DNA of 6,804 nucleotides from assembly GCA_013140415.1 (NCBI GenBank), contig JABFSW010000063.1, positions 1 to 6,804 of the forward strand, written 5' to 3'. This DNA is from Nitrosarchaeum sp. Lineage in GTDB: Archaea > Thermoproteota > Nitrososphaeria > Nitrososphaerales > Nitrosopumilaceae. Positions 2,692-5,064 of this stretch are shown here, piece after piece (position 1 is the stretch's first letter; each line of letters begins with the position of its first letter). The translations under genes were made by a program, and so were the position numbers. The notes under the pieces are model-generated. The model saw only the letters and a list, made by a program, of their open reading frames with translations. It did no database searches and had not been told where the DNA came from.

Positions 2692-3423
2692 ATGGGTTGG
2701 AATCTATTGAATCTGGTCCTATCAAACTATATGAAAAGAGAAAATCTTCTGATATATCTTTTGAAACCAAATTCATTATTATATCTGTTAGATACTAAAT
2801 TGGTGTTGGATAAAAATCCTGAACAGATTTTAGATGATGATTTAATATATGTAAGAAAAGAATTTTCAAATAAAAATCCAAACATAATTTTATGTTCTGA
2901 GCCTTTTCTTAAAGCTGAATTTCTAAATGAGTTAATTGATTCTATTAACTGTCCAGTAATTTTTTTAGATTTTGATTTACTTTATAGTGGTTATATCGTT
3001 TCCGAAATGATTAAAAAAAATGACAAAGTGGAGATTCATCGTCCAAGTAAGGTAAATTTGGAAAAAATCATATCTGAAATAGCAAAAAGAATATCAAATG
3101 AAAAATTCTTGGTTGTAATTGATTCATTAAATGGTTTTTACAACATATTTGATGAGAAAGAATCTGGGAGATTCATTAATGCGTCACTAATGTTACTTTC
3201 ATCTATTGGAATAGAGAGTGATTCTTCAGTGATAATTACTGCTATGACACGAAAAAATGATAACGGTGAATGGATTCTTTCTCCTGGAGGTAGGCATATT
3301 ATTGATTCAAAAAAATCTGGAATATATCATCTTAAAAGAATTGGTAGTAGTTTGATGCTTAATTCATTAAATCAAGTTGGAGCTATTGAAAAAATGTTTA
3401 AAATCACTCATTTAAATTTTTGA
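2692..3423 (+). CDS. Divergent RecA/RadB/KaiC-fold protein with degenerate P-loop
   Basis: This 243-residue protein is not recognised by name. Its core follows the RecA-like order. A first strand and loop, IILCSEPFLKAEFL (65-78), sits where Walker A should be, with Lys74 kept but the glycines and Ser/Thr lost. A second strand follows as PVIFLDFDLLYSGY (88-101), then a Walker B-like FLVVIDS (139-145, Asp144). VIITAMTRKND (180-190) and LSPGGRHIIDS (196-206) resemble RadA/RadB core strands and the PxGG loop. The fold is likely RecA-type, but ATP binding is doubtful; a DNA-repair or regulatory accessory role is inference. The first 60 residues do not match the fold. ATG 2692 has a weak CATAAA element about 33 bp upstream; Met14 (2731) is an alternative start. 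Another frame is open at 2661-2795 (see findings), so the N-terminus may be disrupted. Base composition is very AT-rich. Confidence 0.65.
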   Translation: MGWNLLNLVLSNYMKRENLLIYLLKPNSLLYLLDTKLVLDKNPEQILDDDLIYVRKEFSNKNPNIILCSEPFLKAEFLNELIDSINCPVIFLDFDLLYSGYIVSEMIKKNDKVEIHRPSKVNLEKIISEIAKRISNEKFLVVIDSLNGFYNIFDEKESGRFINASLMLLSSIGIESDSSVIITAMTRKNDNGEWILSPGGRHIIDSKKSGIYHLKRIGSSLMLNSLNQVGAIEKMFKITHLNF

Positions 3424-3903: not shown

Positions 3904-3922
3904 CAGAAATATTTAGTTTCTG
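3904..3922. repeat. Small inverted repeat over the J-domain gene end
   Basis: CAGAAA and TTTCTG form a perfect 6-bp stem around a 7-base loop, spanning the stop codon of the - strand gene. It may help end or stabilise the transcript, but no long T-run follows on the - strand, so the role is uncertain. Confidence 0.25.
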
Positions 3923-5064
3923 GAAAAACCAAATTTGGAAGCCCATCCAACATTTTGATTTTTTGTGGGCTTTGATAAATTATCTAACATTTCGTATGTA
4001 ATTGTAAATCCATTACCTACCATTGTAGCATCTTTATCATATTCATTCTTGTTAGGTACTAATTCATCTGCTAAATCCTTAATTTTTTTGGTTTTTATAT
4101 CAAATAATCTAATTTCTTTACCATTCTCAAGTTTGATAATTGCGTCATTACTAAGACTTTGAATTGAGAAATTTTCAAAAAATCTTATCATACCGTCTTT
4201 TTTTAATTTAATTATAGTGTTATAGGTAATTTTATTCCCATACAATAAAATTTCTCGTGCATTAATTTGAATATCATCTTCCAGATTAAGAATCATAATA
4301 GAATCAGCATCTAGAGAAACTGTATTGACAATATTTTCAGCAATAATTTTTCCTTTTGGTGCTGATATATGAGTTCGTTGTTCTTGAACTTCATAAATTC
4401 CAACTCTTCCTTCTGGATCTTCAATTTTGTATTTTCTACCAAAAATATTTCCAACTACAACATTACCATTGTCTACAATTATTCTAGCTCCATTCTCAAT
4501 TTTGTATTTATTTTCTAGTGGATTAATAAATTTGAAATCACCTTTTGTAAGATGAATATTTGTTCTAAATTCTTCAGTCCAAGATGGACTTGTTATATTT
4601 CCCTGCATAATAATAGAGCCATCATAAGTTAAACTACCTGCCATAAAATTTCCTTTAATTGAAAGTATACCATTAGCTTTTCTTTCAAGTTCAATTTCTC
4701 CAAGAGTTTTTGAACCAAACAATCTAGTGTCAGTTAAATTTGTTCTAATCAAATCCGCTGCCCATTCTTCAGCTATTTGCATTTCTTTGGATAATTCTTG
4801 GCCTAAAATTCGATTTTTTCTCCTGATAGTCTCTTCTGAATCACTTGAATAAACTCTAGATTTTCTAATTTTTTCTAAATCTGTTTCAGGATATTTTTTG
4901 CCGATTTTGAGATCTTCGTATGCTTGTTTGATTTTAATGAATTGATCATTTTCGCCTCCTCGATCAGAATGGTATCTAAGTGCCAATCGTCTAAACGCAT
5001 TACGAATTTCTTTCTCAGTTGAGCCTTCAATAATTCCTAATATGTCATAGTTATTTTCCACCAT
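3913..5064 (-). CDS. J-domain protein with HSD motif fused to a long beta-rich region
   Basis: Residues 5-55 of this 383-residue protein form a J-domain: YDILGI, helix II (EKEIRNAFRRLALRY), the loop, and helix III (NDQFIKIKQAYEDLKI). The loop reads HSD (32-34), not the near-invariant HPD needed to stimulate Hsp70 ATPase. A charged linker (60-115) is followed by about 200 residues (120-325) of short alternating strands and glycine/asparagine turns, such as GNFMAGSLTYDGSIIMQGNI and ENGARIIVDNGNVVVGNIFG. These suggest a beta-solenoid or bactofilin-like scaffold, which is inference. No zinc-finger or client-binding domain of classical DnaJ is present, nor is there a signal peptide or membrane helix. 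A partner Hsp70 gene is not in the window. The ATG at 5062-5064 has a TATA-like site about 31 bp upstream. I do not know a named function. Confidence 0.8.
   Translation of the reverse strand: MVENNYDILGIIEGSTEKEIRNAFRRLALRYHSDRGGENDQFIKIKQAYEDLKIGKKYPETDLEKIRKSRVYSSDSEETIRRKNRILGQELSKEMQIAEEWAADLIRTNLTDTRLFGSKTLGEIELERKANGILSIKGNFMAGSLTYDGSIIMQGNITSPSWTEEFRTNIHLTKGDFKFINPLENKYKIENGARIIVDNGNVVVGNIFGRKYKIEDPEGRVGIYEVQEQRTHISAPKGKIIAENIVNTVSLDADSIMILNLEDDIQINAREILLYGNKITYNTIIKLKKDGMIRFFENFSIQSLSNDAIIKLENGKEIRLFDIKTKKIKDLADELVPNKNEYDKDATMVGNGFTITYEMLDNLSKPTKNQNVGWASKFGFSRN

Follow-up and report, generated by a model that had tools for sequence, protein, structure and literature searches.

A J-domain protein of Nitrosopumilaceae with HSD in place of HPD and a predicted beta-solenoid

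The gene and its J-domain

The window (the whole stretch of DNA that was analysed, 6,804 nucleotides) is from a Nitrosarchaeum assembly of about 1.2 Mb (completeness 84.5), which codes for four J-domain proteins and one Hsp70. The gene under study is located on the reverse strand (3913..5064). It has an ATG start codon and codes for a protein of 383 amino acids, which combines a J-domain with a predicted beta-solenoid. The J-domain (residues 5-53, reverse strand, 4906..5052) matches PF00226 with 44.5 bits (1.7e-11; the curated cut-off is 27.8), and AlphaFold2 predicts helices for residues 5-9, 17-31 and 39-53. All 10 further family members that were scanned also score above the PF00226 cut-off (minimum 30.5 bits). 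Residues 1-64 are matched by 43 distinct PDB sequences (E 0.001 or better).

The loop that joins helices II and III is His32-Ser33-Asp34, encoded by CAT TCT GAT (residues 32-34, reverse strand, 4963..4971, read from 4971 to 4963; the Ser codon TCT is at 4966-4968). HSD replaces the HPD tripeptide, the J-domain trigger that PMC13012618 calls universally conserved. Proteins with a J-domain structure but devoid of HPD have been defined as J-like proteins (PMC9407819). With its predicted helices, its matches to solved J-domains and its H[SA]D loop, the archaeal protein is J-like in this sense.

The C-terminal half

The J-domain is followed by a poorly ordered linker (residues 58-76, reverse strand, 4837..4893; the pLDDT is 49 for block 61-70 and 59 for block 71-80, with residues 63-73 below 50). 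Judged from the model, this linker is likely a flexible tether between the J-domain and the remainder of the protein. A long helix (residues 77-107, reverse strand, 4744..4836) is predicted by AlphaFold2 to lead into the beta-solenoid (residues 112-319, reverse strand, 4108..4731). The solenoid was predicted for the full-length protein (mean pLDDT 85.1) and also when the C-terminal half was modelled alone (pLDDT 86.2, pTM 0.82). Further downstream is a conserved peptide, GxGFxITYxMLD (residues 350-361, reverse strand, 3982..4017), which is predicted to be ordered (pLDDT 93 for block 351-360). Its G350 is found in 101 of 101 sequences, and T356 and Y357 are found in 102 of 102. The protein ends with a basic, aromatic tail (residues 365-383, reverse strand, 3916..3972), most of which is predicted to be disordered (pLDDT below 50 for residues 369-383). 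W374 is conserved in 93 of 98, F378 in 82 of 99 and F380 in 85 of 99 sequences. This tail, with a Trp and two Phe amid basic residues, may serve as a peptide that engages a membrane or a partner.

In the C-terminal half, no Pfam family reaches its cut-off, and no sequence relatives were found in the PDB. The matches to Pfam, NCBIfam and PHROGs concern only the J-domain, and PADLOC reported none. Since PF00226 is the only Pfam family reported at E 0.1, the client-binding domain (PF01556) and the zinc finger (PF00684) are considered absent. The preliminary description had stated that this is not a classical DnaJ C-terminus and that no named family is known to have this architecture. Both statements agree with the predicted solenoid and with the searches in Pfam, NCBIfam, PHROGs, PADLOC and the PDB. 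It had also described a region of short repeated strands, and this is upheld in part: a beta-solenoid is predicted, but its strands are a prediction, and a strong repeat period is absent from the hydropathy profile (the largest z is 2.39, at lag 19). The proposed resemblance to a polymerising scaffold has so far gained no support, with a bactofilin match found neither in the protein nor in the genome.

Conservation of the H[SA]D loop

The loop was read in 104 distinct family ORFs (among them that of L143, which has a long upstream extension). It is HSD in 97 and HAD in seven, so that the HPD tripeptide of J-domain proteins is missing throughout, and Pro was never found at position 33. H32, D34, F24, R25, L29, G36 and G37 are invariant in this set, and F42 is conserved in 103 of the 104. 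The replacement of HPD by HSD in an otherwise well-formed J-domain, as claimed in the preliminary description, is thus borne out. An objection named there, that homologues might keep HPD with only this protein changed, fails because none of the homologues inspected has HPD.

The 104 ORFs comprise 80 that are represented by pattern-searched loci (76 with Ser, four with Ala) and 24 that are represented by whole-genome-search loci only (21 with Ser, three with Ala). The pattern search took 80 of 132 relatives. Its loci lean towards H[SA]D because the family itself supplied the patterns, one of which includes H[SA]D (a second pattern does not). H[SA]D was also found in 28 of 28 members recovered by a whole-protein search, which is independent of the motif (one member, L028, is cut by a contig end). 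HSD is present in all of the best 120 database proteins (of 1740 matches), and in 158 of the 160 database proteins examined. The two others (P0124 and P0145) are short at the N-terminus and offer no readable J-domain.

The 97 Ser codons are TCA (45), TCT (43), TCC (5) and TCG (4), and the seven Ala codons are GCT (5) and GCA (2), each of them being one base from a Pro codon. As all Ser codons are TCN, which is one transition from Pro, Pro is reachable, yet it was never seen. At least six interchanges between Ser and Ala occur on a quick tree with flagged long branches, four of them forced by well-supported branches, and none leads to Pro; the HAD labels cluster no more than in shuffles. One sequence labelled as Nitrososphaeraceae (L127) is placed among Nitrosopumilaceae records on this tree.

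In eight chosen carrier genomes, PF00226 detects 34 J-domains, of which eight belong to the J-domain/solenoid family. The other 26 were all read, and all have HPD, which argues that HPD is not generally lost in these archaea. Mean column entropy is 0.49 bits for the J-domain (residues 5-53), 0.44 for residues 111-160, 0.77 for the solenoid (112-319), 0.88 for the linker and 1.1 for the tail. The start of the solenoid is thus conserved no less than the J-domain. The J-domain itself belongs to the best-conserved regions and is therefore not undergoing decay. The preliminary description had considered a loss of co-chaperone activity; the invariant or nearly invariant residues expected to contact Hsp70 argue against an Hsp70 face that decays freely.

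Distribution and gene neighbourhood

A whole-protein search of 61 genomes detected 28 family members, all of them in family group f1 (28 of 37 f1 genomes, but none of the 24 genomes of other families). A profile of the C-terminal half matched 165 of 400 genomes of the class, and the carriers listed are all from the window's own family; loci were retrieved for 30 of the 165 carriers, these being the best matches. At the level of the phylum, 54 of 398 genomes matched (E 0.01), of which 53 are from the same family and one is marginal. Named carriers are Nitrosopumilus, Nitrosarchaeum, Nitrosomarinus and Nitrosomaritimum. The closest named database proteins, among the best 120 of 1740 matches, are from Nitrosarchaeum. 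The protein seems to be missing from some genera of the family; in genus g9, none of the 14 listed genomes matched. The protein was not found in the phage records and viral contigs that were searched. The genomes G022 and G025, which lack the solenoid protein, code for J-proteins of 146 and 156 residues (L033 and L034) with HPD and with a hydrophobic stretch in the C-terminal part.

The gene is solitary. At 60 of 80 loci, the other strand codes for a ferredoxin at a variable distance, and no constant neighbour that would point to a client was found at the loci compared. Across Nitrosarchaeum and Nitrosopumilus (L065-L144), the flanks of the gene are between about 0.1 kb and about 6-7 kb long, with the outer neighbours in order. 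With such variable flanks and a preserved outer gene order, gene turnover seems to take place at this locus. In the window, the ferredoxin is adjoined by an ORF of 243 amino acids (forward strand, 2692-3423) with a weak match to Iki1, an Elongator subunit (E 0.0027, below the cut-off). This ORF is divergent (41-94% identity among relatives, 23-25% in L142-L144). A protein resembling dual-specificity phosphatases is encoded on the reverse strand (38-553; PF22784, 3.8e-25). Its gene order is kept with a cyclase-like gene and, in some relatives, also with a gene for a radical SAM enzyme.

Comparison with known J-domain proteins

The class A DnaJ of the same genome has a homologous J-domain. However, it has HPD (in FHPDR) and cysteine-rich repeats, and neither is present in the HSD protein. 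DnaJ-Fer of Thaumarchaeota is likewise a lineage-specific J-domain fusion from the same archaea (PMC3564930), but its J-domain has HPD, and the fusion partner is a ferredoxin rather than a solenoid. A Pfam scan did not detect a ferredoxin domain in the HSD protein. In the genome analysed, the J-domain/ferredoxin fusion is encoded separately (L003, G000:C177, about 1501-1653); it corresponds to DnaJ-Fer as described in PMC3564930 and has HPD in the loop.

TbPam18 from Trypanosoma brucei also has HSD in place of HPD. This tripeptide is reported to be highly conserved in kinetoplastids, with the J-like domain otherwise kept (PMC11349236). The two proteins are likened by description, and they differ in that TbPam18 is eukaryotic and resides in the mitochondrial inner membrane; the available part of that report mentions no solenoid. 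A membrane anchor is absent in the archaeal family, for which the highest mean hydropathy of 19 residues is 1.15 in a family-average profile. Lineage-wide HSD of the TbPam18 type is found in the archaeal family if HAD in seven of the 104 ORFs is allowed for.

ARC6 and NdhU/CRRL are plant proteins with other partner domains. These plastid J-like proteins are described as being employed in division or complex assembly (PMC9407819).

Possible function of the J-domain/solenoid protein

An Hsp70 was found in the window's genome and in 55 of 61 relatives. We take H32, D34, F24, R25 and F42 of the archaeal family to be the counterparts of H33, D35, Y25, K26 and F47 of DnaJ. In the DnaK of the same genome, the RIINEP stretch and the linker IVLLDVTP are both intact; they presumably hold the residues corresponding to R167 and L391/L392, respectively. 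In the system analysed in PMC13012618, H33 and D35 of DnaJ contact L391 and R167 of DnaK, and Y25, K26 and F47 are also part of the contacts. Simulations of E. coli DnaJ reported there indicate that P34 holds His33 and Asp35 in a common orientation, from which they reach Leu391 and Arg167 of DnaK, and that upon P34A exchange, helix II extends into the loop and the pose is loosened. H33A or D35A alone is reported to block triggering, D35A weakens binding, and replacement of HPD by AAA abolishes stable binding in simulation (PMC13012618).

We infer that the archaeal J-domain docks DnaK but triggers ATP hydrolysis only weakly, the solenoid serving as a platform for a partner, and we favour this tentatively, at slightly less than an even chance. 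The retained His and Asp would dock DnaK together with the residues from helix II. In the Ser/Ala loop, the contact chemistry would stay while the clamp is lost, so that the J-domain would bind and wait. The solenoid may be the platform through which DnaK meets a specific partner, and the flexible linker (residues 58-76) might let the J-domain reach DnaK close to the solenoid. Several points stand against docking. The archaeal family has Phe in place of Y25 and Arg in place of K26. In the AlphaFold2 model, helix II does not extend into the loop but breaks at H32, and residues 33-35 form one turn (confidence is intermediate here, with a pLDDT of 71 for block 31-40). In view of the binding defects of HPD/AAA and D35A in simulation, a loosened loop might also bind poorly. 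An Hsp70 match is absent in six of the 61 relatives (G011, G012, G013, G036, G050 and G056), of which G011, G036 and G056 belong to the 47 high-quality genomes. G011 to G013 carry the J-domain/solenoid protein, although these are drafts with 70-170 contigs.

A more specific version of the docking reading is rather unlikely. According to it, the protein is an Hsp70 holdfast: DnaK-ATP would be bound and parked undischarged on the solenoid until a client or a second J-protein fires hydrolysis, the tail would tether the protein to a membrane or a partner, and TbPam18 would be an independent case. One family of ammonia-oxidising archaea would then have abandoned the proline clamp and kept it from returning.

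A close rival of weak triggering is an Hsp70-independent J-like module, with the J-fold as a piece for protein-protein interaction and the solenoid as the working part of an assembly. We regard it as possible, though doubtful. It is a close rival because of the plastid J-like proteins and because the authors of PMC11349236 argue that TbPam18 works without Hsp70. As reported there, TbPam18 has been repurposed for mitochondrial DNA replication, and mHsp70 was not recovered in a pulldown of TbPam16, the partner of TbPam18. ARC6 acts in plastid division, and DNAJD15/NdhU is a subunit of the NDH complex (PMC9407819). The strong conservation of the solenoid start also fits. However, a module of this kind does not obviously need invariant H32, D34, R25 and F24 and a near-invariant F42 (n=104). 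Moreover, the TbPam18 variant in which HSD is changed to HPD (S98P) is reported to be fully functional (PMC11349236), so that HSD is no proof of Hsp70 independence.

If Ser or Ala were simply tolerated, the protein would be a normal J-protein with full DnaK stimulation, and the solenoid would be an unusual client-binding domain. All other listed contact positions are conserved, the modelled loop appears undisturbed, and PMC13012618 cites a system in which stimulation is not fully abolished by HPD/AAA. This is nevertheless improbable: the 104 ORFs are devoid of Pro at position 33 although every codon found could yield it by a single base change, all 26 other J-proteins in the eight carrier genomes have HPD, and P34A loosens the loop in simulation (PMC13012618). 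Least probable, and by our estimate very improbable, is a cytoskeletal scaffold, a polymer similar to bactofilin or FapA with the J-domain as a handle. A beta-solenoid is predicted, FapA is weakly matched by two of 14 members (best 5e-4), and MinC_C, another solenoid, is matched by one of 14 (0.71). The HSD protein differs from them in its sub-cut-off scores and in the J-domain fusion: FapA (PF03961) is above the cut-off in none of 61 genomes, and full-length L027 reaches 17.7 bits (cut-off 31). Bactofilin (PF04519) did not appear in the scan of the window protein (E 0.1) or in the list of 19 families obtained for 14 members (E 1), and had no match in a search of the genome. It is also not among the matches listed by Foldseek and VIA, which excludes nothing. 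A strong repeat period is also absent, and the ordered helix before the solenoid (77-107) and the ordered peptide behind it (350-361) may cap its ends.

J-like proteins have been known before, and HSD has been reported from one lineage, the trypanosomes. A literature search found no description of the archaeal HSD J-domain/solenoid protein. The archaeal family, in which the J-domain is fused to a predicted solenoid and both His and Asp are invariant, represents a second lineage for the HSD type. In 104 distinct natural sequences from marine and freshwater archaea, exactly the Pro is gone while both neighbours are invariant. This natural family separates "contact" (His and Asp) from "clamp" (Pro), a distinction that was recently proposed by simulation and which becomes testable with natural proteins. 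If docking without full triggering is true, gripping the chaperone is separable from firing it.

The analysis also corrects a database name. Several of the database proteins (P0075, P0087, P0100, P0111 and others) are annotated as "curved DNA-binding protein CbpA", and the sequence supports only the J-domain part of this assignment.
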